A stretch of 34,561 nucleotides of DNA from contig JAADFS010000192.1 of NCBI GenBank assembly GCA_013152795.1, positions 1 to 34,561 of the forward strand, in the 5' to 3' direction. The stretch is from Deferribacteres bacterium. GTDB taxonomy: Bacteria > Nitrospirota > Thermodesulfovibrionia > UBA6902. The position numbers and the translations under genes are program-made. Every line of letters begins with the position of its first letter. Positions within the stretch are counted from its first letter, which is position 1. The notes below the pieces were generated by a model. The model saw only the letters and a list, made by a program, of their open reading frames with translations. It searched no databases and was not told where the DNA came from. Positions 2,631 through 23,838 of this stretch are shown in pieces.

Positions 2631-3224
2631 CTATGTTCCAACTGTTTCAGCCTCTTTGACTTTTGCATCAACAACTGCAATAGCCTTTTCCGGACACGCC
2701 GGGACGCATTCGCCGCACTTGACGCATTTGGTCTGCCTGATCTCAAACGGCTGGTACCCGCTGATAAACGCCCGTCTCTTTTCGCCATAGATAGCGCCGT
2801 ATTTGCAGGCCGTCAGGCATTCGCCGCACATGGTGCACTTCGCAGTGATAATCGTGTATTCAATGTAGGCCCCGCATGTCCGCTCCGGACAAATGCCTTC
2901 GACATGCCTGTCGAAGTCTCCTGTATCGAGCCACTGAAGCATAAACCGTGCAGTATCTTTTCCCTTTTTACACATGGAGCCGTCCAGCATATCAGAGGCG
3001 ATCCTTCGGAGTTTGGACAGATCCTCCTCCGCGGCCTTCCCCTCAATCATATTATTCAGAATCACCCTTGCCTCATAGCTCCCCATGGAGCAGGGAAAGC
3101 ACTTGCCGCACATCGGCCCGGCGAGGAATTCCGTCATATAGAAAAGTGCCCTTTCCAAAGGGCATTTCTTTTCATCCGCCGCCTTTTTGATGTCGTCTGT
3201 CTTTATGAGTCTCTTATCTGTCAT
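2631..3224 (-). CDS. NuoF C-terminal-like iron-sulfur protein with two extra [4Fe-4S] sites
   Basis: A 197-residue protein that looks like the C-terminal third of NuoF without the FMN/NADH-binding part. It has a CGKCFPC motif near residue 39, followed by a later single cysteine as in the NuoF [4Fe-4S] region, and two ferredoxin-type motifs (CTMCGECLTAC and CVKCGECVPACP). It probably relays electrons between the larger NuoF-like subunit encoded just upstream (10 bases away) and the NuoG-like subunit. I chose the ATG at 3224 because a GAGG site lies 7 bases before it; an in-frame TTG two codons earlier is an alternative. I know no standard gene symbol for this split arrangement. Confidence 0.8.
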   Translation of the reverse strand: MTDKRLIKTDDIKKAADEKKCPLERALFYMTEFLAGPMCGKCFPCSMGSYEARVILNNMIEGKAAEEDLSKLRRIASDMLDGSMCKKGKDTARFMLQWLDTGDFDRHVEGICPERTCGAYIEYTIITAKCTMCGECLTACKYGAIYGEKRRAFISGYQPFEIRQTKCVKCGECVPACPEKAIAVVDAKVKEAETVGT

Positions 3225-3233
3225 GGCCAAACC

Positions 3234-5573
3234 TCAGTATATCGCCTCTGCCATGTAGATAATCTCCGGCAGGACGTGGGCAACCAGGTCTCTGTAAGTG
3301 ACCATTCCTATGAGCCTGCCCTTTTCAACAATCGGCAGATGGCGTATCTTTTCTTTTGAGACAACCTGGATTGCGGCATTGATCTCTGTTGAAGGTTCAA
3401 ATGTTATGATCTTCGTGGTCATTAAATTCCCGATGGGCTCTGCCTTCAGGTCAACATTCTTGTGGACATAGCGGACTACGTCCCTTTCGGTAAAAATACC
3501 GGCTATTTTCCCTTCTTCGTCAACCACTATCACGTCGCTTATATTCTTCTCAGCCATAAGCCTTACGGCTGCATCCGCAGTCTGGTCCCGGGTAACGGTG
3601 GTCAACTCATCGGGTTTTTTCTTTAAGATATCTCTAAGGACCATTCTCGCCCTCCTGTCTATAAGTTCTATTGTTTCCGTAGGCACCTTGAATTCTTCCT
3701 CAAGTATTACATGCCTCTGTTTCTTTATCATAACGGCATTGATCGGACATGCATTATAACAGGCCATGCACTGTGTGCAGGCATTGCGGTCGATTATATA
3801 TCTCTTTCTCGTCTCGGTAACCGCATTGAACGCGCAGGCCTCTTTGCACAGTCCGCACCTGATGCACGCCGCCTGATCGATGACGAATGCCCCCATGCCG
3901 GTGCATGCCTTTGCACGGCAGTACTTTTCATAGACATGCTCTTCATACTCCTCCCTGAAATACTTGATCGTGCTCAGCACAGGGTTGGGCGCGCTCTGGC
4001 CGAGACCGCAGAGTGAGGCCTTCTGGATGTACTGACCGAGCTCCACGAGCCTGCGGATGTCGCCCTGTTCACCCCTGCCCGATGTGATCCTGTCGAGTAT
4101 CTGGAGCATCTGGTAGGTACCTATTCTGCACGGCGGGCATTTGCCGCAGGATTCGGACTGTGTAAATGAGAGGAAGAACTTGGCCACATCAACCATACAT
4201 GTATCTTCATCCATCACCACCATTCCGCCCGAGCCCATCATGGAGCCCACGGATGCAAGGGAATCAAAGTCTATCGGCAGGTCAAGGTGTTCGGCAGGTA
4301 TACAGCCGCCTGAAGGGCCGCCCGTCTGCACGGCCTTGAACTTCTTATCACCGAGCATACCGCCGCCGATGTCAAATATTATCTCCCTCAGGGTCATGCC
4401 CATGGGTACCTCGACCAAGCCGGTGTTCTTGACCTTGCCGGTAAGTGCAAACACCTTGGTACCGGGTGATGTCTTGGTTCCGATGGACGTGAAGTAGTCG
4501 GAGCCCTTTTCAACGATCACGGGGACGCACGCATAGGTTTCAATGTTGTTGAGATTGCTCGGATAGCCCCACGGGCCGCCCCCTGGTTGTGAAAGCCTCG
4601 GCGGCCTGGGCCTCGGGAAACCCCTCTCACCTTCGATGGAGGCAACAAGGGCCGTGGACTCACCGCATACGAACGCCCCTGCGCCTTCCCTTATATCCAC
4701 TGTAAAACTGAAGTCCGTGCCGAGGATGTTTTTCCCGAGCAGCCCCAGTTCTTCGGCCTGTTTTATTGCTATCCTGAGGTTCTGAACCGCCAGGGGGTAT
4801 TCATGCCTGACATATATAAATCCGTACTGCGCGCCTATTGCATATGCACACAGCGCCATTCCCTCAAGGAGGCTGTGGGGGTCGCCCTCCATAATAGACC
4901 TGTCCATGAATGCGCCCGGGTCGCCTTCGTCACCGTTTGCGATCACAAACTTGATATCCCCCGGCGCCGACTTGGTATGGGCCCATTTCTTGCCTGCAGG
5001 GAATCCTGCGCCGCCCCTTCCCCTGAGATTCGCCCTGTCGACTTCCTGAAGAACCAGATCAGGTGTCATTAAGGCCAGGGCCTTTTCCAGCGCGGCGTAT
5101 CCCCCGACCGCGAGGTAATGATTAATATTGCACGGGTCGATCACCCCGTTGTTTCTCAGGGCGATCCTTATCTGTTTCTTATAAAACGGGATATCCGTCA
5201 TAACGGGTATGGGCTCGCTGAGGATGCCGTCACGGTAAAGGCCCTGCCTGTAGGGCATGTTGCCCAGCATGGAATAGCTCATGATGGAAGATACATTTTC
5301 GGGCCTGGTCCTCTGGTAGAAGATGTTCATGGGTTCCACCTTGAGCACCGGACCTTTCTGGCATATCCCCTGGCAGCCTGTCCTGACTATCTCCACCTCA
5401 ACGCCGCTGTCCGCCGCCTCTTTTTTAAACGCATCTATCACCTTGTGGGCGCCCGTTGCAGTGCATGCAGTTCCACAGCATACCCTCGCCCTGAGGGCGT
5501 CGGGCTTGAATGTGGTATCTTTCAGGCGCTCTCTGAACTCGTAAAGCTCTTTTGGACTGTTAAGTTTCTTCAT
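3234..5573 (-). CDS. NuoF/HndC-like NAD(P)H-ferredoxin oxidoreductase subunit with C-terminal CBS pair
   Basis: A 779-residue diaphorase subunit. Domains in order: a thioredoxin-like [2Fe-2S] domain (cysteines at 32/33, 37, 67, 71); the NuoF FMN- and NADH-binding core with GRGGAGFP (185-192) and ANGDEGDPGAF (212-222); an SLBB-like segment; the NuoF [4Fe-4S] site (Cys476, 479, 482, 522); two ferredoxin [4Fe-4S] motifs (Cys570-580 and 599-609); and two CBS domains at about 645-705 and 715-770. Everything up to residue 620 matches HndC-type subunits of NAD(P)-linked hydrogenases and formate dehydrogenases. The CBS tail is unusual and suggests allosteric control by an adenine nucleotide. A GGTGA-type ribosome site precedes the ATG. 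No hydrogenase or formate dehydrogenase catalytic gene is adjacent; the neighbour is CODH. Confidence 0.9.
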   Translation of the reverse strand: MKKLNSPKELYEFRERLKDTTFKPDALRARVCCGTACTATGAHKVIDAFKKEAADSGVEVEIVRTGCQGICQKGPVLKVEPMNIFYQRTRPENVSSIMSYSMLGNMPYRQGLYRDGILSEPIPVMTDIPFYKKQIRIALRNNGVIDPCNINHYLAVGGYAALEKALALMTPDLVLQEVDRANLRGRGGAGFPAGKKWAHTKSAPGDIKFVIANGDEGDPGAFMDRSIMEGDPHSLLEGMALCAYAIGAQYGFIYVRHEYPLAVQNLRIAIKQAEELGLLGKNILGTDFSFTVDIREGAGAFVCGESTALVASIEGERGFPRPRPPRLSQPGGGPWGYPSNLNNIETYACVPVIVEKGSDYFTSIGTKTSPGTKVFALTGKVKNTGLVEVPMGMTLREIIFDIGGGMLGDKKFKAVQTGGPSGGCIPAEHLDLPIDFDSLASVGSMMGSGGMVVMDEDTCMVDVAKFFLSFTQSESCGKCPPCRIGTYQMLQILDRITSGRGEQGDIRRLVELGQYIQKASLCGLGQSAPNPVLSTIKYFREEYEEHVYEKYCRAKACTGMGAFVIDQAACIRCGLCKEACAFNAVTETRKRYIIDRNACTQCMACYNACPINAVMIKKQRHVILEEEFKVPTETIELIDRRARMVLRDILKKKPDELTTVTRDQTADAAVRLMAEKNISDVIVVDEEGKIAGIFTERDVVRYVHKNVDLKAEPIGNLMTTKIITFEPSTEINAAIQVVSKEKIRHLPIVEKGRLIGMVTYRDLVAHVLPEIIYMAEAIY

Positions 5574-5607: not shown

Positions 5608-6090
5608 CTATCCGTCGCCGCTTTTAATATCCTCGACTATCTCATCAAGCCTTTTCATGTCTATTTCACCGACGATGCTCTCATTGACCGTCGCCACCGG
5701 TGCAAGGCCGCAGCAGCCGATGCATCCCACGGTCTCAAGGGTCATCGCAAGATCAGGCGTTGTCTCTCCTTCATCTATCTTGAACTCATCCTTGATCCTG
5801 TCGAGAACTTTATCCGCCCCCCTTACATGGCAGGCGGTGCCCGTGCAGACGCGTACTATCTTCCTGCCCCGCGGCGTGAAATAGAACTGTTTGTAAAACG
5901 TCGCTGTGCTGTAAACATCTGACAGCGGTATATCCAGCTTTTTAGATAACCTTATCAGGTCTTCCTCCGGCAGATAATTGCGTTCCTTCTGTATCTGCTG
6001 GAAGGCATGTATGAGGATGCCCCTTTTCTTCTGTGTATCGGTCAGAATATCGCCGACATGTCCTATGACTTCATCAACCTTGAGATTCAC
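5608..6090 (-). CDS. NuoE/HndA-like [2Fe-2S] subunit
   Basis: About 160 residues, the usual length for NuoE-type subunits. The thioredoxin-like [2Fe-2S] ligands are visible as CTGTAC and, about 35 residues later, CIGCC (C-x4-C and C-x3-C). The N-terminal helical part (AFQQIQKERNYLPEE) is typical. It would form the small subunit of a NuoEF-type diaphorase with the gene at 3234-5573. I favour the GTG at 6088-6090 because GGGAGG lies just ahead of it; the ATG at 6111 is an in-frame alternative seven codons earlier without a good site. Either start overlaps the end of cooS, so translation is probably coupled to CODH. Confidence 0.9.
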   Translation of the reverse strand: MNLKVDEVIGHVGDILTDTQKKRGILIHAFQQIQKERNYLPEEDLIRLSKKLDIPLSDVYSTATFYKQFYFTPRGRKIVRVCTGTACHVRGADKVLDRIKDEFKIDEGETTPDLAMTLETVGCIGCCGLAPVATVNESIVGEIDMKRLDEIVEDIKSGDG

Positions 6091-8086
6091 TGATACCTCC
6101 CACTCCGGCATGGGCTGCGCCGGCTGCTGATCTTTCCAGTTCCCTCCTGGCAGCCATGTCCATAAGGACCCTTTCGGCGCCGAACTTTCCGGGTTCGTAT
6201 TTTCTCAATTTGAGCCTCTCCCTCGCCTTGTCTATGTAGTCAAGTGTCATCGCAAGAATCTTTTCAGGATCCGGCTCGAAATGAAGCGCTCCCATGTAGC
6301 GCTCAAACCATACTTCGGTCATGATCCTTTCAACTTCCTTGCTCGCTCCGACCGGTGACTCCCCGCCCATGATTACGGGAACACCGGATGCCGCGAAATA
6401 TGTACCGATTGCAATGGCCTTCTCGGACATCCACTCCGGAGCGATTCCAACGGCAGGCATTCCGCCGATCTCATCGGACAGGCCCCCTTCATGCGCCATG
6501 GCCGTTGCTATCGTGAGTATCCTCGAGTTGTCTACGCACGCGCCGAGGTGAAGGATGGGCGGGATTCCGATTGCCTCACAGACCTCCCTGAGGCCTGGGC
6601 CGGCATTTTCAAGCGCCATCTCGGGCGTTAAATATCCGGCGGTCCCGCATGCTGCAGAGCCGCAGCCGGTTGAGACGATGAGAACGTCATTTTTTATAAG
6701 CTCGGTTGCAAGGTATTTGTGAATGCTTGTGGCCTGCACCCTCGGGTTGTCGCATCCTACCAGCCCGACCACGCCCCGGATCCTTCCGGCCATGATGGCG
6801 TCATTCAAAGGCCTGAAGGATGCACGCCATTTTCCGCCCTGCATGTATTCGATATACTCATGGGAGAAACCTGCTATCAGCGGCGTCTTGCGGGTGATAT
6901 GGCTTCCCTCGCTTGTCCTGTTCGGGAAATTGTCTATGGCCATTCTTATAATCTTCTCCGCCGTCTCCCTTGCATGGTGCTCGTCGTATTCAACGTGGAC
7001 TGCCCCGGGTATCTTGGCCTTGGGGCTGGTGGTGATGATCTTTGTATGGAATTTCTCCGACAGCTTGGCGATGGCAGGCATGATGCACTGCACATCAACC
7101 GTCATGGCGTCGATCAGACCAGTCATAATACCCAGTTCCTGGTTTGTAAACCCGCCGGCAGTGGGTATCCCGTGCCTCATGAGGACCTCGTTTGCAGTGC
7201 AGCACATGCCGCCGAGATTGATGCCCTTCGCCCCCTTGGATTTTGCGTATTCAATCATCTCCGGCGAGGATGCCACATCAACGATTATCTCGGCAAGGGT
7301 GGGCTCGTGGCCGTGGACGATGAGGTTGACCTCGTCCTCCTTGAATATGCCGAAGCTGGATTCGGCCCTGAGGGGTTTGGGTGTTCCGAAGAGGATGTCC
7401 GTGATGTCCGTGGAGATCATGCAGCCGCCCCAGCCGTCCGCCAGTGCGGTCCTTAATCCCTGTGCCAGCAGGTGATCGGCCTCGTGGTCCACACCCACAC
7501 TTGTCCGGTGCATGGCCTCCACCACCTCCCTGTCTATGCCGCGCGGGGCAATCCCCCATTTCCTCCATCTCTCCTGCGTCTTCTCGGGAGCCCTTTTGTT
7601 GTAATTCAGTTCCCCTGTCTGGCGCCCGAAATCCTCAAGGAATTTAAGGGCGACATCTTTTGCAACATCATTGACAGGCCTGCCCTCGAATTCTATTCCG
7701 AGTATACCGGCAACCTTGTACAGTTTTTTGACGTCGGTTATCTTGAAGTCCTTTGCCGTACCCTCGGCGGCCGCCAGGAGGGTCATGGCCATGTCTCTTG
7801 CGTGATCAGAGTGGGCGGCGGTGCCTGCCGCTATCATCCTTACGAGGTTTCTTGCAGCCACCGTGGCAAGCGATGCGCCGCATACCCCTGCCGCCTTTTC
7901 CTCGGCGTTCCGGCCCACGAGCCTGCACGGGCCCATATGGCATACCCTGCAGCAGGCCCCGGTCTCGCCTATGGGGCACTGCTTCAGTTTCTCCGCACGC
8001 TCAAAGCATGTCTCAAGATGGTGGGACTCACCCCATTCTATTATCTCTTCTGCTGATGTGCTTGCGCTTTTTGTCACTTTATCCAT
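6074..8086 (-). CDS. acsA: Anaerobic Ni-Fe carbon monoxide dehydrogenase, catalytic subunit
   Basis: A 670-residue CooS/AcsA protein that interconverts CO and CO2 at a [Ni-4Fe-4S] C-cluster. B/D-cluster cysteines are present at 37, 45, 46, 49, 54 and 69. Probable C-cluster ligands are His260 (in VHGHEP), Cys295 or 296, Cys334, Cys445 (GCDNPR), Cys475 (STGCGS) and Cys517 (LGACVDN), so the enzyme looks intact. GGAGG precedes the ATG. It follows acsB by 74 bases, which identifies it as the CODH partner of acetyl-CoA synthase, although cooS would be an equally valid name. The 3' end overlaps the NuoE-like gene. No cooC/acsF nickel-insertion ATPase gene is in the window. Confidence 0.97.
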   Translation of the reverse strand: MDKVTKSASTSAEEIIEWGESHHLETCFERAEKLKQCPIGETGACCRVCHMGPCRLVGRNAEEKAAGVCGASLATVAARNLVRMIAAGTAAHSDHARDMAMTLLAAAEGTAKDFKITDVKKLYKVAGILGIEFEGRPVNDVAKDVALKFLEDFGRQTGELNYNKRAPEKTQERWRKWGIAPRGIDREVVEAMHRTSVGVDHEADHLLAQGLRTALADGWGGCMISTDITDILFGTPKPLRAESSFGIFKEDEVNLIVHGHEPTLAEIIVDVASSPEMIEYAKSKGAKGINLGGMCCTANEVLMRHGIPTAGGFTNQELGIMTGLIDAMTVDVQCIMPAIAKLSEKFHTKIITTSPKAKIPGAVHVEYDEHHARETAEKIIRMAIDNFPNRTSEGSHITRKTPLIAGFSHEYIEYMQGGKWRASFRPLNDAIMAGRIRGVVGLVGCDNPRVQATSIHKYLATELIKNDVLIVSTGCGSAACGTAGYLTPEMALENAGPGLREVCEAIGIPPILHLGACVDNSRILTIATAMAHEGGLSDEIGGMPAVGIAPEWMSEKAIAIGTYFAASGVPVIMGGESPVGASKEVERIMTEVWFERYMGALHFEPDPEKILAMTLDYIDKARERLKLRKYEPGKFGAERVLMDMAARRELERSAAGAAHAGVGGISESQG

Positions 8087-8160: not shown

Positions 8161-10359
8161 TTAGAACATCGGTTCCATCTCAAGCGCCGGATGCCCGACA
8201 CTTGCAAGATATTCCAGAAGCTTTTCAGAATCTTCCGCGATAGTCTCATCCGCAATCTTATCCATTAAATCAGGCACCCCCTCTTCCTCGCACCTCTTTT
8301 TGAAATCCTCGGCGATTCTCTCCTTGAGATTCTTTGTCATCCAGACTATTCTCCTGATTCCGCCGTCTGCATAGAGGAACTTGCGGCTTGTAATGAAATT
8401 CACCCCTATCCCCATAAAACCGGGGTTCTGCGTGCCTCCACCGACTGTACCGGCCAGTGTGGAGAATTTCATTCCAACAGGGGTCATGCCTGTATGGCCT
8501 CTCTGCACGAGCATTACCCCGTTGGCCTCAGGGATAATTGCAACGATACACTCAAAACAGCCGCAGGATGTCATGGGATTATCCATGATTGTGTACAGAT
8601 TGAGCGATTCAACCGCACCCGCGGAATTGGCCTTGAGGTATTCATCAACACCGGCCCACCTGCCTGCCTTGGCGTCCAGCACCTCGCCCTTCTTTATGGG
8701 CTGGTTGCCGCCTGTGGGGTCTATCTCGAAGGCGGCCTTTGTGTCCAGCCAGTTGTAAGCGCCGCACAGACCCAGGCGCTCCGGGCTTATAACGCATACG
8801 TGGGACGGCGCGAACGACTGGCACAGGAGGCAGGAGTAATAGGTATCCACTGATTCGTCCGTGAGGCCGGCAAGCCTGTGGTCCCTTTCCTTGTAGACGG
8901 CCCTTGCCTGTTCCTGGAGTTCGAGGACGTCCTTTTCATCGAAATAAAGTGTGACCTGGACCTTATCGACAATCGCCTTGAACCTGTTGTGTGTCATGGT
9001 GTTGTGTATTATGCCGATATGCTCCAGCGTGATGCCGTCCTTGTACGCCTGTTTGCTGATTCTCATCCATACGATGTCGCGTTGTCCCATGTGCCACAGG
9101 CCCTGTGCTTCGTTTATGTTATGATGGAGCTTTCTCTCGATAATGGCCTCAAAGTCCTTCTGCATCTTCCGGCCTGCAACGTCTATGACAATCCCGAGCG
9201 GCATCTGCCCGCCGGCCTTGTATCTCTCTTCTATATCAGTGCCCACAAGCACTACTTTGCCGTCTTCGATCTCATCCATTTCCCTTGTTCTTACCCATTC
9301 AAATGCAGGTGTGCGGTTGCCGCCGAACTCTATGAACATGTCTTCTTTCCTGATCCTCTCGCCCTCGAATGCAGGGCCGTAGGAGACGGGGATAGGCGGT
9401 TTCTCAACCGTTACCTTAAGCCCTCTGACCTCAAAGGCCCTCTGTACGATCTTGCTGTGGTCGAGTTCTTTTTCGACATGCTCGTAGGTGCATACCCCTG
9501 TCGGGTGGATGACCGGGACATCGGTATCGCATATTGCGGGGTATCCCATATTGATGGCTCCGGCACCCGTGGACCACTTGACGTCGTCAAGCTCGCCCAG
9601 GACAAGGGCGAAAGCAAAGACCCTGTCTTTTGTATATTTCAGATGCGCCTTGTAATCCCCGGGCTTGTTGCCGCCGAAGATCAGGGACGCCCTGATGGAC
9701 CAGTCGAGCGCATAGAGTGTATGTTCTGTTTTCGTGCCGAGAGGGACGATATATGTATCCCAGCCGAGCTCGACATTCTTCCTCAGAAGTTGCCTCGTGA
9801 CGCTGTCGCCTCCCGATTCCCCGGAGAGGAATATGAGGATGTTCTTTTCCTGCAGTTCCCTCACGATTTTCACCGCGGTTTCATCATCAGGGGCCGCGCC
9901 GATGATGGCTGCAAAACCCGGCATCCTGCCGTCAACAAGCTGGATGCCCAGGTTTCTCTGAATGGTGTCCGTGATGAAGCCGTTGTATACATAACCTGTT
10001 TCAGGGTCTGTATCCGGCTCAAGCCCCTCAATATATCTCAGGGCCAGTATGATCTCCTCGCAGAAAAGGGTTGCCATGCCCGAATCCAGGGCCTCTCCGA
10101 GATATGGTTTCCAGAGCTTTTCCTCCGGCTCCTCGTGCAGCATCTCCCTTGCCATTTCCAGGGCAACCTTCATGTCGGCAAGTGTCTTGACAGGGAATGC
10201 CGTCATTGCATACACCAGCGGAAGGTAAAAAGCAGTGTCCGGAAACTCAAACACGAAGTCCTTTCCTTTTTCCGCAATCGCCTTATCAAGCATCTCCTCC
10301 GCCGTCCTGAAGAGACTGTGTGAAGCCCTTATTGCAGCAGAGGCAATTATCTTTGACAT
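8161..10359 (-). CDS. acsB: Acetyl-CoA synthase (CO dehydrogenase/acetyl-CoA synthase alpha subunit)
   Basis: A 732-residue AcsB, close to the 729 residues of the Moorella enzyme. It condenses CO, a methyl group from the corrinoid iron-sulfur protein, and CoA into acetyl-CoA at the Ni-Ni-[4Fe-4S] A-cluster. The expected ligands are all present at Cys510, 513, 522, 532, 599 and 601 (motifs CLLCQSF, VCVISPE, LGLCGAY and TSCGCFEC), offset by four residues from the Moorella numbering I recall. AGGAGG precedes the ATG. It lies 47 bases downstream of the PerR-like gene and upstream of acsA on the same strand, so the regulator, synthase and CODH are probably one transcript. Confidence 0.98.
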   Translation of the reverse strand: MSKIIASAAIRASHSLFRTAEEMLDKAIAEKGKDFVFEFPDTAFYLPLVYAMTAFPVKTLADMKVALEMAREMLHEEPEEKLWKPYLGEALDSGMATLFCEEIILALRYIEGLEPDTDPETGYVYNGFITDTIQRNLGIQLVDGRMPGFAAIIGAAPDDETAVKIVRELQEKNILIFLSGESGGDSVTRQLLRKNVELGWDTYIVPLGTKTEHTLYALDWSIRASLIFGGNKPGDYKAHLKYTKDRVFAFALVLGELDDVKWSTGAGAINMGYPAICDTDVPVIHPTGVCTYEHVEKELDHSKIVQRAFEVRGLKVTVEKPPIPVSYGPAFEGERIRKEDMFIEFGGNRTPAFEWVRTREMDEIEDGKVVLVGTDIEERYKAGGQMPLGIVIDVAGRKMQKDFEAIIERKLHHNINEAQGLWHMGQRDIVWMRISKQAYKDGITLEHIGIIHNTMTHNRFKAIVDKVQVTLYFDEKDVLELQEQARAVYKERDHRLAGLTDESVDTYYSCLLCQSFAPSHVCVISPERLGLCGAYNWLDTKAAFEIDPTGGNQPIKKGEVLDAKAGRWAGVDEYLKANSAGAVESLNLYTIMDNPMTSCGCFECIVAIIPEANGVMLVQRGHTGMTPVGMKFSTLAGTVGGGTQNPGFMGIGVNFITSRKFLYADGGIRRIVWMTKNLKERIAEDFKKRCEEEGVPDLMDKIADETIAEDSEKLLEYLASVGHPALEMEPMF

Positions 10360-10406: not shown

Positions 10407-10805
10407 CTAATGGCGCTTCCTGCACTTCCGGCATAAGCCGTAAAACTCGATACTGTTGCCGAGCAATTCAAATCCGTGTGTGAGCTCTTCCGGCACGTCC
10501 AGCTTGAAATCCGTGTGCAGATCGAGAATCTTCTTGCACTTAATGCACAAAATATGGTGGTGTTTGGTGGTGTCCGGGTCATATCTTTTCTTGCCGGAAT
10601 CTATCTTGAGCTCCTTCACGCGTTGTTTGTTTTTCAGCGCCTCAAGCGTGTTGTAAACCGTTGCAAAAGACATTGTGGGATAGTGTTTCAGCACCGCCTT
10701 GTAAATGTCTTCGGCAGACGGATGCGACTTGTTGCCCCTCAGAAAATTCAGTATGGCAAGCCGCTGGGGCGTTAATTTAATCTGAAGTCGTCTGAATTCT
10801 TTCAT
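10407..10805 (-). CDS. perR: Fur-family regulator of PerR type
   Basis: A metal-dependent repressor of about 132 residues. The winged-helix part contains LTPQRLAILNFL and the recognition region SFATVYNTLEAL. The two CxxC pairs (CIKC and CRKC) match the structural zinc site of PerR. The regulatory ligands of PerR also seem present: His in SHPSAED, Asp in KRYDPD, the HHH run and Asp in ILDL. PerR proteins sense peroxide through oxidation of iron-coordinating histidines; that function is inferred here from the ligands. I used the ATG at 10805; an in-frame TTG at 10835 would add ten residues. The gene sits directly upstream of acsB, and a PerR-box-like palindrome lies about 115 bases upstream of its start. 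Confidence 0.85.
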   Translation of the reverse strand: MKEFRRLQIKLTPQRLAILNFLRGNKSHPSAEDIYKAVLKHYPTMSFATVYNTLEALKNKQRVKELKIDSGKKRYDPDTTKHHHILCIKCKKILDLHTDFKLDVPEELTHGFELLGNSIEFYGLCRKCRKRH

Positions 10806-10920
10806 GGTTTTGATTTTTCTTCTGTCATTCCTCAACTTCTCCGGGGGTCGTTTTTCCGGCAGGGATTACCGGTGTGCTCCCGCCTCCGGGAATGACACGT
10901 TCTTAAGTACTCAAATTAGT

Positions 10921-10935
10921 TAATAATAATTATTA
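10921..10935. promoter_or_regulatory. PerR-box-like 7-1-7 palindrome
   Basis: The 15 bases TAATAATAATTATTA form a perfect 7-1-7 inverted repeat (TAATAAT, A, ATTATTA). This is the architecture and AT-rich character of Fur/PerR operators (PerR consensus TTATAATnATTATAA). It lies in an AT-rich stretch between acsC and the PerR-like gene, where a promoter for perR-acsB-acsA would be expected. Autoregulation and control of the CODH/ACS genes are inferred. Confidence 0.55.
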
Positions 10936-11015
10936 GTTAATAAAACGTCATAATATCTTACAGATGTCCGCCCCCCCTGTCAAACAGGCTGCACATAAAT
11001 AAACCCTCCAGGGGC

Positions 11016-11038
11016 GTAAAAATACCGCCCGCGGGCGG
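11016..11038 (-). terminator. Candidate intrinsic terminator after acsC
   Basis: On the minus strand a perfect GC-rich palindrome (CCGCCCGCGGGCGG, 11025-11038) is followed by TATTTTTA. It lies 44 bases past the acsC stop. The T run is short, so it may be only partly efficient, separating the acsEDC transcript from perR-acsBA. Confidence 0.5.
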
Positions 11039-11081
11039 GAGGGAGGGCCTGCAGCGTTCAGGCAACATCAGGCCAGAAAAC

Positions 11082-12422
11082 CTATGCACGGTTTTTCAGA
11101 AAAGTCGGAATGGCGTTCGCCTCCCTCGGGCCGACCGTTATCTTCCATCCCTCGAGCTTGTCCTCGAGCGCGCCGCTGAGGATTGCAACCTGACCCGGCA
11201 GGATAAGCTCCTTGTGGCTGATCTGGTTCTCCACCCCGCTTTCCTTTATGAACTGCGCGATCTTTGCGGCCGTGAACTTACCGGCAGCCCAGGCAGTCAG
11301 AACGGAAAGACCCTCGCAGTCCATTACGGCAAGCCGTGCCGGCACCCGGCTGTTTTCAATCTCACCCGATACAATGAAATAGGTGAGCGAGAAATTCGTT
11401 GTAATCATAAGCGGTGAATCCGGACCCGGCTCTCCGATTTCGTAAATCTTCTGCTCCACCTGCATCGGCACCTGCGGGTCGGTGTAGAGATTCTGCCTCA
11501 GCGTGAAGAGCGCGAGATTCTTCCACTTTTCAATACTGCCGAGTATGACTATTGAGGCGTATTTGGCGATTGCCACAGAGGCAATGGATGCCTCGAAAAG
11601 GGGATCATCCCTCAACACGCTGTTTATCACCGGATATCCGAGCGGTTTGAAGTTCTTCTTAAGCGCAGAACGCCTGATCTGCGTATTGTGCTCTATGATC
11701 TCCCTTGCCGTCTTTGCGCCGGAGTCAAGTACGATATCCTCCACGCCGAGCCCCTTGATCTTTTCAGTGAGCACCGAGAGGGCCTCCGGACCCTGCGCGC
11801 ATGCAACAAGGGGAACACCGTGAGCCTTTGCAACAGCGGCCATGGCTTCGGCGTTTCCGTCATCAGCTCCGTAGATCAGCGGCTTTCTCTCTGCAACGGC
11901 CTTTACGGCGGCCTCGGCCGCAGCGACATCCTTGCAGTTCAGTATGATGGCCGCCTCCGGCGCCTTCTCCGCCACAAGCCTTACGGCAGCCTCATATCTG
12001 GCGGCGTCGCCCGAAGCATATTCCACGGATATGGCATCAACCCTCAGTTTCTGCCCCACCCGGTCGATTTCGGAAGAGGCCACTTCGGATGCCTTTTCCG
12101 CAAGTTCGCCGTCGCTTAAGCTGTCTTTAACATTAAGCGCCAGGGCACAGGGATTGATGAACTTCTTCTCATGCCTGAACAGAACGGTCTCTCCGCCCAG
12201 CTTTACAGCCTTTTCCCCGGTGCCGAGCTCGAATGACCTTATGGGCGGCGCCGACGCCTCGCCGAGGGTTTTCTTTGCCTCCTCCGACACATCAGGACAC
12301 GCTGAAAGCTCCACGCCTCCCTGCGCGAGTTTCATTGCAAAGGCCAGACATGTGGGAAATCCGCATTTCTTGCAGTTTGTCTTCGGAAGAAGCTTAAATA
12401 TCTGAATTCCGGTTAATGCCAT
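11082..12422 (-). CDS. acsC: Corrinoid iron-sulfur protein, large subunit
   Basis: A 446-residue gamma subunit of CFeSP, which carries a methyl group on cobalt from methyltetrahydrofolate to the A-cluster of AcsB. The N-terminal [4Fe-4S] domain has Cys17, 20, 25 and 42 (CKKCGFPTC and SACPDVS). It is followed by the TIM-barrel domain and the C-terminal corrinoid-binding domain. GGAGG lies 7 bases before the ATG, and the acsD stop is 20 bases upstream. The order acsE-acsD-acsC keeps the methyl-branch genes together in one transcript. Confidence 0.96.
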   Translation of the reverse strand: MALTGIQIFKLLPKTNCKKCGFPTCLAFAMKLAQGGVELSACPDVSEEAKKTLGEASAPPIRSFELGTGEKAVKLGGETVLFRHEKKFINPCALALNVKDSLSDGELAEKASEVASSEIDRVGQKLRVDAISVEYASGDAARYEAAVRLVAEKAPEAAIILNCKDVAAAEAAVKAVAERKPLIYGADDGNAEAMAAVAKAHGVPLVACAQGPEALSVLTEKIKGLGVEDIVLDSGAKTAREIIEHNTQIRRSALKKNFKPLGYPVINSVLRDDPLFEASIASVAIAKYASIVILGSIEKWKNLALFTLRQNLYTDPQVPMQVEQKIYEIGEPGPDSPLMITTNFSLTYFIVSGEIENSRVPARLAVMDCEGLSVLTAWAAGKFTAAKIAQFIKESGVENQISHKELILPGQVAILSGALEDKLEGWKITVGPREANAIPTFLKNRA

Positions 12423-12442: not shown

Positions 12443-13384
12443 TCAAACCAGTTCACCGATGGTCTTTTCAACGGTCTCTATCGCCGCAGGATGCCTCATG
12501 ATAAGGAGGTTTGTCCCGGCCAGAAGCATCGCCGTTGCGGTAATCGCCTCCCAGGCAATGCCCCTCTCACGGAGCGCCCCCCATTCAGGAACATCCGCTT
12601 CCGGGGCAACGGTCTCCTTTATCTTCCAGACATACATGCCGACATCCCCGAGTATCGGAGGCTGCATGGTCGGATCATTCTGGGCAAGCGCGGCAAGCCG
12701 TATCCTCTCCATCACTGAATAGGTATACTCCAGGCCGTACCCGAGCGCAGAGCACATCGGGTCTGTAATGAGCTTTTCTTTGCTGAAACCCATCTGGGTT
12801 ATCAGGATGTTCAACTGTTTTGCAAGATTGATGTCAAGCTCCGACATTGCTATCAGTTTATGATTATGCGCGAGGGCCGCGGCCACTATGGTTTTGTAAT
12901 TGCCCTCCTGGGCCTTTCCGATTATGCAGTTGTACCCGCTTGCAGCCTCGGCTGCGGCAACCAGCACCGTGGAGTCCTTTTCAATGTGGTTGGAGCCGAG
13001 TATGACAAGGGGCACATCAACAGCCGCCAGCACATCCTTGACGGTCTTGGCGGCATCCTCGGCAGACCTGTCGTCCCTGTCTGGATGGGTGCTCAGAAGC
13101 CTGAGCGCAATGGCCTTTGCATTCAGGACATCCTGGCAGTGTTTGGCCCATGCAACAGGATCGCCGCTTACATCCTTGTATGCCTCTTTTACTGTATCCG
13201 GCCAGTCATCGGGCGGACAGTCCTGAATCTCATAGGCAATCACGGGCTTGTTGGGCTGTTGTCCTTCAAAGGACAGGAACGGAAGGGTGTTTTCACCGCC
13301 TACTGTAACCGCCCTGTCGTCTTTGCCGAAATCAAAGCTTAGGACTTTACCGGTATATGACTCCTTAGGAATAACGTAAGACAT
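12443..13384 (-). CDS. acsD: Corrinoid iron-sulfur protein, small subunit
   Basis: A 313-residue beta subunit of CFeSP, of the usual length. It has a TIM-barrel-type fold with the conserved segments PVIAYEIQDCPPDDWPD near residue 50 and DPMCSALGYGLEYTYSVMERIR near 210, as in AcsD/CdhD. It pairs with AcsC (20 bases downstream) and supports cobalamin binding at the subunit interface. GGAGG precedes the ATG. It is encoded between acsE and acsC. Confidence 0.95.
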   Translation of the reverse strand: MSYVIPKESYTGKVLSFDFGKDDRAVTVGGENTLPFLSFEGQQPNKPVIAYEIQDCPPDDWPDTVKEAYKDVSGDPVAWAKHCQDVLNAKAIALRLLSTHPDRDDRSAEDAAKTVKDVLAAVDVPLVILGSNHIEKDSTVLVAAAEAASGYNCIIGKAQEGNYKTIVAAALAHNHKLIAMSELDINLAKQLNILITQMGFSKEKLITDPMCSALGYGLEYTYSVMERIRLAALAQNDPTMQPPILGDVGMYVWKIKETVAPEADVPEWGALRERGIAWEAITATAMLLAGTNLLIMRHPAAIETVEKTIGELV

Positions 13385-13442: not shown

Positions 13443-14231
13443 TTACATCTCCAGGTACGAGTGCGCATAAAGTGTATTTCCGAGAAAGATGTCCGTTGTC
13501 TTGAGCACATCCATAAGATCTTTGTCAAGAGGGTTCATGATCGCCGCTGAAAGACCCTCGTACATAAGCAGTGTCAGGTATACCCTGTCTATCAGGCTTC
13601 TCATCTCCTTCGGCACGCCGTTTGATACATTACTCAGCCCCACAACCGTTTTCATCGGGGGGTCATTCAGTTCCTGGAACATCTTCACGGCCTTGATGGC
13701 ATGGATGGCCTGATCCTGCATTGTGCAGACCTGGAGAATCAGCGGATCAAGGAAAAGATCTTCCATCGGCACGCCGTATTCAGCGGCCCTGGCCATAATC
13801 TCGGCGGCTATCCCGCATCTTTCCTCCGCGTCGGCAGGCAGGCTGCCCTTTCCGAGGGTCAGGGCGATACACTGCGCATTGTGTTTCGCCGCCATCTCGA
13901 GCATGACAAACCTGTCCGGCTCATTTGACGTGGAGTTGATAAGGGGCCTTCCCCATTCATTGTTATGCACCTGCAGGCCCGCCTCAAGCGCGGCCGCATT
14001 GGTGGTATCCAGGCACAGGGGGGCCTGCACCACCTGCTGTATGCTCTCGACCATCCACTTCATGAGGTCTTCGCCGTTTTCCTCGGCAGGACCTATATTT
14101 ACGTCTATGAAGTGTGCGCCTGCCTTCCACTGGGCTGCGGCAAGCTCCTGGATGGGTTTGGGGTCGCGGGCATTCATCGCCTCCCTGACCTTTTTCGCTA
14201 TAACGCTGATTTTTTCACCTATAATTATCAT
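13443..14231 (-). CDS. acsE: Methyltetrahydrofolate:corrinoid iron-sulfur protein methyltransferase
   Basis: A 262-residue pterin-binding TIM-barrel enzyme of the AcsE family that moves the methyl group of 5-methyltetrahydrofolate to Co(I) of CFeSP. The pterin-binding motifs are visible: HFIDVNIGPAEENGED near residue 36, DTTNAAALEAGL near 79, NSTSNEPDR near 98 and VGLSNVSNGVP near 199, which contains the conserved asparagine. AAGGAG lies about 9 bases before the ATG. It is first in the minus-strand acsEDC unit and divergent from the MtrA-like gene. A TATAAT element lies about 70 bases upstream. Confidence 0.96.
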   Translation of the reverse strand: MIIIGEKISVIAKKVREAMNARDPKPIQELAAAQWKAGAHFIDVNIGPAEENGEDLMKWMVESIQQVVQAPLCLDTTNAAALEAGLQVHNNEWGRPLINSTSNEPDRFVMLEMAAKHNAQCIALTLGKGSLPADAEERCGIAAEIMARAAEYGVPMEDLFLDPLILQVCTMQDQAIHAIKAVKMFQELNDPPMKTVVGLSNVSNGVPKEMRSLIDRVYLTLLMYEGLSAAIMNPLDKDLMDVLKTTDIFLGNTLYAHSYLEM

Positions 14232-14306: not shown

Positions 14307-14444
14307 ACATAAGTGGGAAGGAAAATATGTGCAATTATTTGGTAATAAGAATTTTAAATAAGAAGTCAGGGGCGGCACGGCGGTGCCGTTACGGGGGGCG
14401 CAGCGGAGTTGAAGTTTTCCGCCGGTATCAGACATAATATTGCC

Positions 14445-15605
14445 ATGAATCCCACGTTCAGGAAGGTCTATTCGGAAATCCAGGGCGGAATGAAGCTCTC
14501 CAAGTGCCGGAAATGCGGCTGCATGAGGGGAACGCTGGAGAATCTCAGGGCATCCCTGCCCTTGCTGAAAATCAAGGATGCAAAGGAACTTCTCCGGCAT
14601 GTGAATGAATGGCTCGGGCAGCTTGAACCGCTCGAATACCCGTGTTTCGGGTGCAAATACTGCATTCCGCCGGAGGCCATGACCAGGCTCACTGCAAAAT
14701 ACCCGGCCCTTGCATCAGCCAGTCTGTCAGGCTGCGGGATGACGGTGAATAATGATTCCTGGCCGCCTGTGGAAGGCGAGTATACTGTGCTGGACGCATC
14801 AGCTCCGGTGGCCGTCTCCACCCTCTCAAGCGTCAAACTCGAGGAAAAGCTGGCCAGGCTCAGGCCCGAAGGTCTCTGCATAGTCGGCAAGACAGAGACG
14901 GAAAACATCGGAATCGACAAAATAGTGAAAAACGTCACTTCCAATCCCGCCATCACCTCCCTGATCCTGGCGGGAAAAGACACCGAGGGGCACCAGAGCG
15001 GGAAAACTCTCCTGGCACTTTGGGAAAACGGGGTGGACGAAAACATGCGCGTGATCGGTTCAAACGGCAGGCGTCCCATACTCAAGAATGTAACCCGCTC
15101 GGATGTGGAAAAATTCAGAAAACAGATACACATAGAAGACCAGATAGGCTGTGAAAACACCCGGACGTTAGCCAGGAAAATCCGGGAAATGTCCCGGAAG
15201 GCCGCTGCAGCGGCGGGTGCTTCCTCTTGCGGATGCCACGGTGACTGCGGCACACCGGCTGTTGCCGTATCAATGCCCTCCCTGTCCGTTGCAAAGGTCG
15301 GTTCTTCAGAAGTTCCCGTGATTACGGCGAAAAAACACAGAAAATCAGCGGTCAGGCTTGACAGCGCGGGGTATTTCGTGATCCTGCCGTCTGAGAAGGA
15401 TAAATCCATCCTGGTGGAGCACTATTCCTATGACAATAAGCTGCTCAGGAAGATCAAAGGCAAAAACAGCCGGGATATTTATTTTACGATTATCAATAAT
15501 AAATGGGTTACAGAGTTAAGCCATGCGGCATACCTGGGGAAAGAACTCGCAAGGGCTGAATTATCCATCAGGGAAGGATTCAAATTTGTTCAGGACGGGG
15601 CATAG
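14445..15605 (+). CDS. MtrA-like corrinoid methyltransferase-subunit domain fused to DUF4346, with N-terminal cysteine cluster
   Basis: About 386 residues. The N-terminus has two cysteine groups, CRKCGC (21-26) and CFGCKYC (67-73), which look like Fe-S or zinc ligands. Residues of about 95-245 (from [12 protein letters not shown] through [13 protein letters not shown] and [14 protein letters not shown] to [15 protein letters not shown]) resemble MtrA, the cobamide-binding subunit of methanogen methyl-H4MPT:CoM methyltransferase. A Cys-rich linker ([10 protein letters not shown]) leads to a C-terminal DUF4346-like domain ending in [14 protein letters not shown]. Its position beside acsEDC points to corrinoid methyl transfer or corrinoid-protein repair, which is inferred. 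I chose the ATG at 14445; an in-frame TTG at 14409 is possible. The stop codon shares a base with the parA GTG. Confidence 0.75.
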
Positions 15606-16363
15606 TGGGAAAGGTAACGGCAGTAGCCAACCAGAAGGGGGGCGTTGGAAAGACTACTTCGGCGATTAATCTGGGCGCATCCCTTGCAGGTGAGGGGAAG
15701 CGTGTCCTGCTCATTGATTCCGACCCCCAGGGCAACTCAACAAGCGGCCTCGGCATTGACAAGGAAAACATCAACGGCAGTCTCTATGACCTGTACACCG
15801 GCGCGAAACGCATAGAAAGGATCATCCGCCGGACAGACGTGGAGCGTCTTGAGATCATATCATCGAATATCGAGCTTATAGGCGCCGAGCTTGAGCTTTC
15901 CTCAAGAGAGGGCAGGGAGACGATTCTGAGGCGCGCCCTTGAGCCGGTCAAATACCGGTATGATTACATCTTTATCGACTGCCCGCCTTCGCTGAGCCTG
16001 CTGACACTGAATGCCCTTGTTGCAGCGGACGGCCTCCTCATTCCCATGCAGTGTGAATATTATGCGCTTGAAGGGATCAGCATGCTTCTGAGAACCTTCA
16101 ATATGGTGAAAAGCTCGCTGAATCCCTCCCTTGAGATAGAAGGGATACTGATCACAATGTTTGACGGGAGGATCACCCTCGCCAACCAGGTGACGGATGA
16201 GTTGAGGAGGCATTTCGGCGACAAGGTCTACAGGACGATCATCCCCAGGAATGTCACCCTTGCCGAGGCCCCGAGCCACGGCAAACCGGTTATAATGTAT
16301 GATATACACTCAAAAGGCGCCCGGAGTTACCTGGAGCTTGCAAAGGAGATAATAGGTCAATGA
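15605..16363 (+). CDS. parA: ParA/Soj chromosome-partitioning ATPase
   Basis: A 252-residue ParA with the deviant Walker A motif [13 protein letters not shown] near residue 11 and the [11 protein letters not shown] and [14 protein letters not shown] motifs. It hydrolyses ATP on the nucleoid and works with ParB in origin segregation. It starts with GTG directly on the last base of the upstream stop codon and overlaps parB by four bases (ATGA). CooC nickel-insertion ATPases share the Walker motif, but the ParB partner and the DPQGN signature identify this as ParA. No parS-like palindrome (TGTTTCACGTGAAACA) was seen in the window. Confidence 0.95.
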
Positions 16364-17196
16364 AGCCCGCACTCGGAAAAGGCCTCTCCGCCCTGATCCC
16401 CGGGACAGGAAAAGGGAAGGCAAAGGAGATACTGGAAATAGACCCGGCGAATATCGTGCCCAACAAATACCAGCCGAGGAGGATATTCAGGGACGAGACC
16501 CTGAATGAACTCGTGGCCTCGATAAAGGAAAAGGGCGTGATCCAGCCTGTAATCGTGAGAAAGACGGACGGCGGCTCATACCAGTTGATTGCAGGCGAGC
16601 GGAGGTGGAGGGCCGCCAGGATGGCGGGGCTGTCCGGTATTCCGGCCATTGTCAAGGAAGCCGCCCCTTCCGAGGTGCTTGAACTCGCACTGATAGAAAA
16701 CATCCAGAGGGAGGACCTCAACCCCCTTGAGGCCGCAGAGGCCTTTCAGAGGCTGATAGACGATTTCAACCTCACCCATGACGACCTGTCCGCAAGGGTC
16801 GGCAAAGACAGGGCCACAGTGACCAATTACCTGAGGATACTGAAACTGCCTGCCGAGATCAAGCAGTGGATCGCCGAAGGCTCCCTGAGCATAGGCCATG
16901 CCAAGGCACTGCTGCGCGTTGACAACCGGCGACTTCAGATCAGCATGGCAAAGAGGATCATACGTGACGGCCTGAGCGTAAGGCAGGCCGAGGCATTAAG
17001 CAAAAAAAGCGCTGTTGTCTCACGGCCCAAACCAGCGGCCAGGGACCCGCAGATTGCCTCCCTTGAGGAAAAGCTCGTGCAGAGCCTCGGTACAAAAGTC
17101 CGCCTGATCCACAAATCGAACAAAAAGGGAAAGATAGAGATAGAGTACTATTCCCTTGAGGAGCTCGACAGGCTCCTTGAAATCCTCATAAACTGA
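16360..17196 (+). CDS. parB: ParB/Spo0J chromosome-partitioning protein
   Basis: A 278-residue ParB. It has the N-terminal KGLSALIPG segment typical of chromosomal ParBs, the CTPase/ParB-N boxes ([10 protein letters not shown] near 30, [13 protein letters not shown] near 77 and [17 protein letters not shown] near 112), a helix-turn-helix ([19 protein letters not shown]) and a C-terminal dimerisation domain. It binds parS and loads partition complexes. ATGA overlap with parA indicates translational coupling. A weak hairpin follows the stop. Confidence 0.95.
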
Positions 17197-17380: not shown

Positions 17381-19825
17381 ATGAAATCAAGGAATTCATA
17401 TCTGATTCTGGGTGTGCTTATGATCGCCCTGCTGATGCCGTCTTCAGCAGGCGCAGCCTGGCGGACAGGCTGTGTGGATTGTCCGCGTCTTTTTTATCGT
17501 ATAGATATGCGGACGCTGGCGGTGGATTCTTCCGGGAATCCACATATTGTTTACGGTGGAGGGGGCTGGATCGGAGATGGTGTATATTATGCATATTATG
17601 ACGGAGACTCATGGCATATCGAAACAGTGGACGACAGGGGTGGTGGCACTCTCTCCATAGCCATAGACTCCTCGGATAAAGCGCATATCAGCTATGACGG
17701 CAGCGGCGGGTTGAAACATGCAACCAATGCATCCGGCTCGTGGGTGATTGAGACAGTGGACATTGAAGGAGGCGGTCGTCCCTCCATAGCCATAGACTCC
17801 TCGGATAAGATTCATATCAGTTATGGCAGCAGCCCTCTGAAATATGCGACGAATGCATCCGGTTCATGGGTGATTGAGACAGTGGAGGACGTGGGAGCCT
17901 GGTCTAACTCCATAGCGGCAGACTCGTCAGGCAACGTGCATATCACTTATCGTTATTCTACTGCTGATTCAAAAGATTACATCCTCAAATACGCGACGAA
18001 TGCATCCGGCTCATGGGTAACCGAGATTATAGACAGCGACGGAAGGGTAGGTGAGCATCACTCCATAGCTGTCGACTCATCGGATAAAGTGCATATTGCG
18101 TATGATTATTATCTTTATCTGAAATATGCGACGAATGCATCCGGCTCATGGGTAACCGAAATTGTAGACAGCGACGGAAGGGTGGGTGAGAGTAACTCCA
18201 TAGCCGTAGACTCGTCAGACAACGTGCACATCAGTTACGGTGATTATACCAGTTATCCGTATTATCAACTGAAATACGCAACAAATGCCTCAGGTTCATG
18301 GGTCACCGAGATAGTGGACGATAGCGCTGTATTATCGATTTTCTCCAGGACCTCCATAGCCGTAGATTCCTCAGATAATGTGCATATCAGTTACGTCCAT
18401 GACAGTCCTATTCCTACTTATATTTTTCCGAAGTTCTACCTCAGATATGCAACCAATGCATCCGGTTCGTGGGTCACCGAGACAGTGGACAGTGGCAGGA
18501 AAGTCAGCAAGTATAGTTCGGTAGCCATGGATTCAACAGGTAATGCACATATTAGTTATGTCAGCGATGAAGGTCTGATACATATGACCAACAACGTGGG
18601 TTCTTGGATAACCGAGGTTGTGGTCAGTGGGTTGGGAAGCTGGCCCAACTCCATAGCTGTAGACTCGGCAGACAATGTACATATCGGTTATCTCGGTGAT
18701 CAAGGTTTGATACACGTTACAAATGAGCAGGGTTCATGGGCAAGCGAAATTGTGGATACTAATGGAGGCATATCCAACTCCATCGTCATAGACTCCTCGG
18801 ATAAAGTGCATATTAGTTATCTTAGTCATTATGAGGACAAGGCCTATCCAAATGAGTATCTGAAATATGCGACAAATGCATCCGGTTCATGGGTCACTGA
18901 GACCGTATTGGTCGGCGCTGCAGGTGAATACTTTCACAACTCTATAGCCCTGGATTCTTCGGATAAGGTACATATTACTTATCGGGATGCGTACTGGCTG
19001 GTATTGCCAAGTAATATCAACCATGTGACGAATGCATCCGGTTCATGGATCACTGAGGTTGTCGATCGTGATGGAATGGCTCCTTCCATAGCCATAGACT
19101 CCGCAGACAATGTGCATATCAGTTATTTTTATCCTGTTTATTATTCAAGTTACAGATACCTGAAACATGCGACGAATGCATCCGGTTCGTGGGTGAATGA
19201 AGTTGTAGATAACACAGGAAGCCCGTCTTTCATAGCCATAGACTCCGCAGACAATGTGCATATCAGTTATAGCAACGCTCAATCTCTGATGTATATGACA
19301 AATGCATCGGGTTCATGGGTGAGCGAAACGGTGGACAGCGATGCAGGTGAGGTGATCTCCATGGCGATGGATTCAACGGATAAGGTTTACATTGTCTACT
19401 ATGACAGATTTCATTTTGACCTCAAGTATGCAACAAACAAGCCCTTGCCTGACATCTCGGTAACCGACTCGGTCGACCCCGCGGATGACCTCCAGATACC
19501 GTTTGGTGAAGTAAGGGGAGGCAGGTCACCAAGCCGGACAGCAACTGTAACAAATATTGCAGACAGCGGCAGCGAAAACCTTGTGATCAGTGCTGTATAT
19601 CTGACAGGTGCGAATCCGGAACAATTCGAGATATGGAAGGATAATTGTTCTGATACGGCATTAGCATCGTCCGGAAGCTGTACGATACGAGTGGTATTCA
19701 CGCCTGAAGAGGAAGGAGTGTACAGTGCAAGGCTGGGCATAGACAGCAACGACCCCGACACACCTACAGTTTATGTGAAATTAACCGGGACAAGCGTTGC
19801 AAAGCGCAAGCAGGGCCGCAGATAG
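17381..19825 (+). CDS. Secreted repeat protein (14 propeller-like repeats) with ASPM/SPD-2/Hydin-like C-terminal domain, copy 1
   Basis: An 814-residue exported protein. Residues 1-26 are a signal peptide (MKSRNSYLILGVLMIALLM, then an AGAA-type cleavage site). A conserved WRTGCVDCP cysteine pair follows. Fourteen repeats of about 45-55 residues come next, each with a core like SIAIDSSDNVHISY and a connecting strand like LKYATNASGSWVTEIVD. Four-strand repeats of this size suit propeller blades, and 14 would make two seven-bladed propellers. From about residue 690 a C-terminal domain (FGEVRGG, TVTN, SCTIRVVFTPEEEGVYSARL) matches the choice-of-anchor-D/ASPM-SPD-2-Hydin fold, ending in a basic tail. 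The function is unknown; surface binding is likely. GGGGGGAGG precedes the ATG. A paralogue follows in tandem. Confidence 0.85.
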   Translation: MKSRNSYLILGVLMIALLMPSSAGAAWRTGCVDCPRLFYRIDMRTLAVDSSGNPHIVYGGGGWIGDGVYYAYYDGDSWHIETVDDRGGGTLSIAIDSSDKAHISYDGSGGLKHATNASGSWVIETVDIEGGGRPSIAIDSSDKIHISYGSSPLKYATNASGSWVIETVEDVGAWSNSIAADSSGNVHITYRYSTADSKDYILKYATNASGSWVTEIIDSDGRVGEHHSIAVDSSDKVHIAYDYYLYLKYATNASGSWVTEIVDSDGRVGESNSIAVDSSDNVHISYGDYTSYPYYQLKYATNASGSWVTEIVDDSAVLSIFSRTSIAVDSSDNVHISYVHDSPIPTYIFPKFYLRYATNASGSWVTETVDSGRKVSKYSSVAMDSTGNAHISYVSDEGLIHMTNNVGSWITEVVVSGLGSWPNSIAVDSADNVHIGYLGDQGLIHVTNEQGSWASEIVDTNGGISNSIVIDSSDKVHISYLSHYEDKAYPNEYLKYATNASGSWVTETVLVGAAGEYFHNSIALDSSDKVHITYRDAYWLVLPSNINHVTNASGSWITEVVDRDGMAPSIAIDSADNVHISYFYPVYYSSYRYLKHATNASGSWVNEVVDNTGSPSFIAIDSADNVHISYSNAQSLMYMTNASGSWVSETVDSDAGEVISMAMDSTDKVYIVYYDRFHFDLKYATNKPLPDISVTDSVDPADDLQIPFGEVRGGRSPSRTATVTNIADSGSENLVISAVYLTGANPEQFEIWKDNCSDTALASSGSCTIRVVFTPEEEGVYSARLGIDSNDPDTPTVYVKLTGTSVAKRKQGRR

Positions 19826-19842
19826 CCCTGAGAGAGATCTGC

Positions 19843-19881
19843 GGGGATTGCAAAGCCGGAAGATCCGGCTTTACAATCCCC
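19843..19881 (+). terminator. Strong hairpin after propeller gene 1
   Basis: GGGGATTG..AAAGCCGGA and TCCGGCTTT..CAATCCCC form a long stem with one mismatch and a tiny loop, 17 bases after the stop codon. It is followed by ATTTATAA rather than a solid T run. It probably terminates or stabilises the first transcript and separates the two paralogues. Confidence 0.6.
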
Positions 19882-19960
19882 ATTTATAACCGTAAAAAGT
19901 ATTTCTCAGCTTTTTCTTTCCGAGGGGGTAAATATTAATGCAATAAAGGGGGAGGCTGTC

Positions 19961-23823: not shown

Positions 23824-23838
23824 CCATTGCCTCCTTCT

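Follow-up and report, generated by a model that had tools for sequence, protein, structure and literature searches.

The closest described counterparts of the regulator analysed here are the PerR proteins of Bacillus subtilis (PDB 2fe3, 3f8n) and Clostridioides difficile, which it resembles in fold family, five regulatory ligands, zinc cysteines and the 7-1-7 architecture of the operator. In the model derived from these organisms metal-loaded PerR represses and H2O2 releases it (PMC4866751; PMC8546684). In C. difficile the rbr1 operon is under PerR repression, which H2O2 lifts (PMC8546684), and the operator consensus of B. subtilis PerR is TTATAATNATTATAA (PMC545781). The regulons of both organisms comprise peroxide and superoxide defence, metal and haem genes, whereas in the DNA studied here the perR gene and its candidate operator lie within a CODH/ACS operon. 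Few known enzymes are as oxygen-labile as CODH/ACS, which builds acetyl-CoA from CO2, and to our knowledge little has been learnt about the control of its genes. A literature search on PerR or Fur in connection with acetyl-CoA synthase or the Wood-Ljungdahl pathway, which reached subscription journals poorly, returned no description of this arrangement, and PerR at a CODH/ACS locus is not mentioned in the two CODH genomic-context surveys that we searched.

A Fur-family regulator in the acs gene run

The window, i.e. the whole stretch of 34,561 nucleotides analysed here, is a contig from a genome of 2.77 Mb (85% complete). Among genomes with names, those most closely related to it are metagenome genomes of Thermodesulfovibrio/Nitrospirota, many of which come from groundwater and the deep subsurface. 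The minus strand carries, in this order, acsE (methyltetrahydrofolate:CFeSP methyltransferase, 13443–14231), acsD and acsC (small and large subunit of the corrinoid iron-sulfur protein, 12443–13384 and 11082–12422), a gap with promoter and box, perR (10407–10805), acsB (acetyl-CoA synthase, 8161–10359) and the gene for the Ni-CO dehydrogenase catalytic subunit (cooS/acsA type, 6074–8086), so that the content of a CODH/ACS (Wood-Ljungdahl) operon, with acsB, acsC, acsD, acsE and Ni-CODH, is present in one run. Four Nuo-like genes follow, encoding a NuoE-like subunit (5608–6111), a NuoF-like subunit (3234–5573), a short NuoF-C-terminal-like iron-sulfur protein of 199 residues (2631–3230) and a NuoG-like molybdopterin/iron-sulfur subunit (525–2540). 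The NuoF-like protein (779 residues) combines an N-terminal 2Fe-2S domain with a ferredoxin domain in its C-terminal part and a C-terminal pair of nucleotide-sensing CBS domains. The run ends with trxA (122–448) and the first codons of trxB (104–1), which is cut by the contig end and complete in the congener G207. Both thioredoxin genes are thus where the original prediction had placed them, but their link to the run is confined to the genus and is a weak argument, as trxA/trxB are absent after nuoG in the 17 other family loci that show nuoG.

Several further gene groups lie upstream of acsE. Divergent from it, the plus strand encodes an MtrA-like pterin-binding protein (PF04208 + PterinBD-DUF4346), followed by ParA and ParB genes (14409–17196) and by a row of three repeat proteins with SBBP beta-propeller and HYDIN/ASH-type Ig domains (17381–22377). 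A pyruvate formate-lyase-like glycyl radical enzyme and a radical SAM activase-like gene (22829–26319, minus strand) form another oxygen-sensitive system near the acs cluster. On the plus strand mlaE is apparently split by a frameshift or assembly error (31667–32459), as the ORF at 31667–32080 covers only the first 87 of 212 MlaE model positions and overlaps the ORF at 32070–32459.

The product of perR has 132 residues when read from the ATG at 10805; a longer version from a TTG at 10835 is possible and was set aside, since the ATG aligns with all relatives. The protein matches PF01475 (7e-30), its top NCBIfam match is the PerR model (133 bits, under the cut-off of 180 bits), and the closest solved structure is B. 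subtilis PerR (2fe3, 1.1e-27; runner-up 5e-19). In the alignment with 2fe3 the B. subtilis ligands H37, D85, H91, H93 and D104 pair with H28, D76, H82, H84 and D95, none of which varies across 18 acs-linked homologues, and among the cysteines of the structural zinc site C87, C90 and C125 are invariant and C128 is nearly so in the same set. Fold domain, nearest structure, ligands and zinc cysteines thus identify the protein, at the level of sequence, as PerR-type, bearing out the proposal that a Fur protein with the PerR ligand set directly precedes acsB, which begins 47 bp downstream and is predicted to share the promoter of perR. The AlphaFold model has a mean pLDDT of 68. Between the window and two sister species synonymous sites of perR have diverged substantially (dS 0.32–0.53), and dN/dS between congeners is 0.02–0.06, showing that perR is under strong purifying selection.

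Being a member of the Fur family, the regulator might instead sense iron or manganese rather than peroxide and match synthesis of the iron- and nickel-rich complex to the metal supply, the more so as PerR-type proteins need Fe2+ or Mn2+ for DNA binding. We consider such control by metal status improbable. The fifth ligand, matching position 104 of B. subtilis PerR, is Asp and not Glu, and a Glu-to-Asp change at this ligand is reported to make Fur H2O2-sensitive (Parent 2013, as cited in PMC4866751). The closest relatives of the regulator adjoin rubrerythrin, superoxide reductase, FprA and peroxiredoxin genes. The genome also encodes a separate Fur-family protein that carries Glu at the D104 position, like true Fur, and whose gene is preceded by a Fur-like palindrome, AAATGAATTTCATTT, differing from the PerR-type box. 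Moreover, a plain repressor would cut synthesis of an iron enzyme at times of ample iron. Two Fur-family proteins were found in each of three congeners, including G207, which is listed as 100% complete; the acs-linked protein is therefore the only PerR found in the genus.

Promoter and candidate operator upstream of perR

Between acsC and perR we identified a predicted sigma-70 promoter, TTGACA-17-TAAGAT (10955–10983, minus strand; TATGAT in both congeners). Just downstream of it, at about +13 to +27 of the predicted transcription start, lies TAATAATAATTATTA (10921–10935), a PerR-box-type candidate operator on the promoter of perR itself and exactly the perfect, AT-rich 7-1-7 palindrome that the original prediction had described. 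Loss of the box in close relatives had been named beforehand as the finding that would speak against it; each of the two sister species has a perfect box, with both half-sites and the promoter block kept and only the central base of the core changed, while the surrounding spacer has largely diverged between the congeners. Allowing up to three mismatches, a box search yielded 12 matches in the window versus 0.5 in shuffled windows, the 12 including several overlapping or strand-symmetric readings of one site.

In genome-wide scans, which are pattern searches only, this site is the sole perfect match in the genomes of both congeners, G206 and G207, and the window's own genome, G000, has one more that is not shared. 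That second TAATAATAATTATTA of G000 (C49:4053) was rejected, having no counterpart in either congener and no adjoining stress gene, and TTAGAATGATTCTAA of G000 (C275) with its G207 counterpart overlaps the start of a sugar-nucleotide gene and was judged to be due to chance. A further palindrome, AAATAATAATTATTA (L078:1501, L082:1501, L083:170), is kept in all three congeners ahead of a run of coiled-coil/sensor genes that follows a P-type metal ATPase. It was not adopted, as it lies 170–190 nt upstream of a sensor-type gene with no stress gene adjoining; these sites are a possible second PerR target.

Most relatives have a box of the CAAGAATNATTCTAA type, from which the window box differs by one letter per half-site, located between TTGACA and GATAAT. 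The region between -35 and -10 is the usual place for a repressor. A like promoter and box are found at PerR homologues of Thermodesulfovibrionia that are not linked to acs and stand, as read from translations, beside rubrerythrin, superoxide reductase, FprA or peroxiredoxin genes, and a box precedes most of the 80 nearest PerR loci in named genomes. We trained a site matrix exclusively on 20 boxes from such non-acs loci (rubrerythrin, superoxide reductase, FprA and peroxiredoxin). The window box scored 19.7 of a maximum of about 21, exceeding all 300 shuffles, and 21 of 28 acs-linked upstream regions scored above 99% of 200-nt windows drawn at random from the same loci; the rough consensus for choosing the training boxes had been written after viewing the acs and the non-acs sets. 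A weak or no recognisable box was found at loci L023, L027, L020, L021 and L052. By pattern and matrix score, the box type before acs-linked perR is the same as at the classical oxidative-stress PerR loci of the class.

These data also bear on the idea that the palindrome arose by chance and that the promoter is free of PerR control in the window genus. In its favour, the box of this genus (g1) is all A/T and no longer lies between -35 and -10 but beyond the transcription start, on the downstream side, and the genome contains other A/T palindromes, though of lower quality. The perfection of the half-sites in three species amid diverging DNA, the uniqueness of the match in G206 and G207, the close resemblance to the relatives' box and the score on a matrix trained at non-acs loci make a chance origin very improbable.

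Regarding the genes served by this promoter, P(perR) is the only recognisable promoter between acsC and acsB in the window. Across 28 loci a promoter-like site (p<0.05) precedes perR in 20 and acsB in none, and the 47-bp gap between perR and acsB in the window contains neither a stable fold nor a terminator fold. Past acsC there is a terminator-like hairpin, CCGCCCGCGGGCGG followed by TATTTTT (11025–11038, minus strand), which is weak and not kept in G206; a stem with a T-run after acsC in G207 resembles it, but is likewise weak and not conserved. As a strong predicted promoter precedes perR but not acsB and the acsC hairpin is weak, acsB may be transcribed from P(perR), by read-through from acsEDC, or both. 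Since the box is located before perR, autoregulation is the minimal reading, and in its purest form PerR would set only its own level (and that of distant stress genes), its place before acsB being a neutral relic of hitch-hiking and acsB being expressed mainly by read-through from acsEDC. The position of box and promoter matches that at free-standing PerR loci, and in most relatives only about 80 bp with no clear terminator separate acsC from perR. The hairpin in the window and the stem in G207 count against read-through as the main source of acsB transcripts, and in the window genus no comparably strong PerR box common to all three species precedes a known stress gene. Taken together with the gene order described below, these points render pure autoregulation rather unlikely, although read-through could make P(perR) unimportant for acsB.

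Gene order and its history

Searches for the regulator and for acsB covered 231 genomes of the class, and the loci were then read. Within the Thermodesulfovibrionia family to which the window belongs, 32 genomes bear acsB, and 28 of them (13 genera) have the order acsC-perR-acsB, as counted by hand from two match lists; the contig of G222 begins at perR, so that acsC was not seen there. This order persists down to about 60% protein identity, which speaks against a neutral relic. In three of the four exceptions (G209, G210 and G211) perR is located elsewhere, beside superoxide reductase and FprA genes, and the fourth, G225, is without perR. Both perR and the box before acsB are absent in 20 of 20 control loci from outside families or from the four exceptions, acsC not being seen on the stretch in two of them (G004, G194).

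A tree built from 96 proteins places the acs-linked perR copies in one group except for three relocated ones, with 2 label changes versus about 26 in shuffles; many forks are poorly supported, as expected from 134 columns. Among the 80 nearest PerR loci in named genomes, acs linkage occurs only in members of this acs-PerR clade. The simplest account of tree and gene order would be a single insertion of perR with its own promoter into an existing acs operon, followed by relocation or loss in a few lineages.

One such case is G226 (contig C144, locus L051), where the acs-linked perR, 26 bp past acsC, lacks about 36 N-terminal residues, i.e. the DNA-binding end, and the box is lost. G226 thus represents a natural loss of the regulator in which the box goes with the protein. 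Retention of acs without a working perR in front, as in G225, G226 and genus g9, is in line with plain autoregulation, and in G225 and G226 it is a point against P(perR) being important for acsB. Four acsB copies, each preceded by perR, were found in a single bin, BMS3Bbin08 (G185; L097–L099, L163); one of these perR genes matches that of BMS3Abin06 at every position, which makes BMS3Bbin08 a probable mixture.

Direction of the response and comparison with known systems

We favour, with a probability of roughly 0.6, an autoregulated peroxide/iron-responsive promoter that was inserted once and also feeds the acsB, CODH and Nuo-like genes. A PerR-type repressor gene with this promoter would have entered an acsE-acsD-acsC-acsB-cooS-nuo operon at the junction of acsC and acsB, in the ancestor of one Thermodesulfovibrionia family. 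We infer that PerR loaded with Fe2+ (or Mn2+) binds the 7-1-7 box and partly represses the promoter, and that H2O2 oxidises histidines of the iron site and releases PerR, which would increase transcription of perR and, on the same transcript, of acsB and the genes for CO dehydrogenase and the Nuo-like subunits.

If PerR is classical, peroxide should thus raise and not lower perR-acsB transcription, since in the B. subtilis/C. difficile model H2O2 relieves repression. Such derepression would fit a need to replace damaged enzyme, to supply electrons or to use those derived from CO, rather than shut-down. In C. ljungdahlii and C. acetobutylicum, exposure to O2 raises expression of Ni-CODH genes (PMC6344411), but predicted PerR operons of D. 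vulgaris are reported to be lowered by oxygen stress (PMC545781), so the direction of the response in anaerobes is not always as in B. subtilis. Given the expected rise and these differing responses, protection of the enzyme through the response of acsB, as originally proposed, is no more than a possibility.

The window genus may have gone further. At its rubrerythrin and superoxide reductase loci, inspected in three congeners, no box precedes those genes. With a single PerR, boxless stress loci and a moved box, local specialisation on the acs operon is a live possibility: stress genes would have left the regulon, and the sole PerR would be a dedicated CODH/ACS regulator with acsB-CODH-Nuo-TrxAB as main target, coupling carbon fixation to peroxide. 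We put this forward tentatively, as a doubtful reading. For the family as a whole, the lasting position of perR before acsB suggests a probable wiring of carbon fixation to oxidative stress in these uncultured deep-subsurface bacteria. If this is true, a clade-wide, singly acquired peroxide-sensor module would link oxidative stress directly to transcription of the Wood-Ljungdahl pathway. The proposed link between PerR and box can be tested with two purified components, and sister lineages with perR, without it, or with perR relocated from beside the same operon provide a natural experiment.

Among known systems, the perR-rbr-rdl and perR-rbr-roo loci of Desulfovibrio and Geobacter (PMC545781) resemble the window in that PerR stands in a run with its predicted targets and a palindrome covers the promoter; the D. 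vulgaris site CAGGAATGATTCCTG (PMC545781) is close to the CAAGAATNATTCTTG type of acs-linked loci. Their targets are rubrerythrin and oxygen reductases, unlike the carbon fixation genes here. Closer still are the other PerR loci of Thermodesulfovibrionia (L019, L022, L028–L031, L053–L072), which adjoin rubrerythrin, superoxide reductase, FprA or peroxiredoxin genes, encode proteins 52–69% identical and have the same promoter with the box between -35 and -10, but are unlinked to acs; theirs is likely to be the ancestral arrangement. The Ni-CODH of C. ljungdahlii and C. acetobutylicum (PMC6344411), the latter case coming from a PerR study, shares with the window the tie of CO dehydrogenase expression to oxygen stress, whereas the oxygen-induced clostridial enzyme belongs to clade C and is encoded outside an acs operon, in a genomic context other than that of the window.
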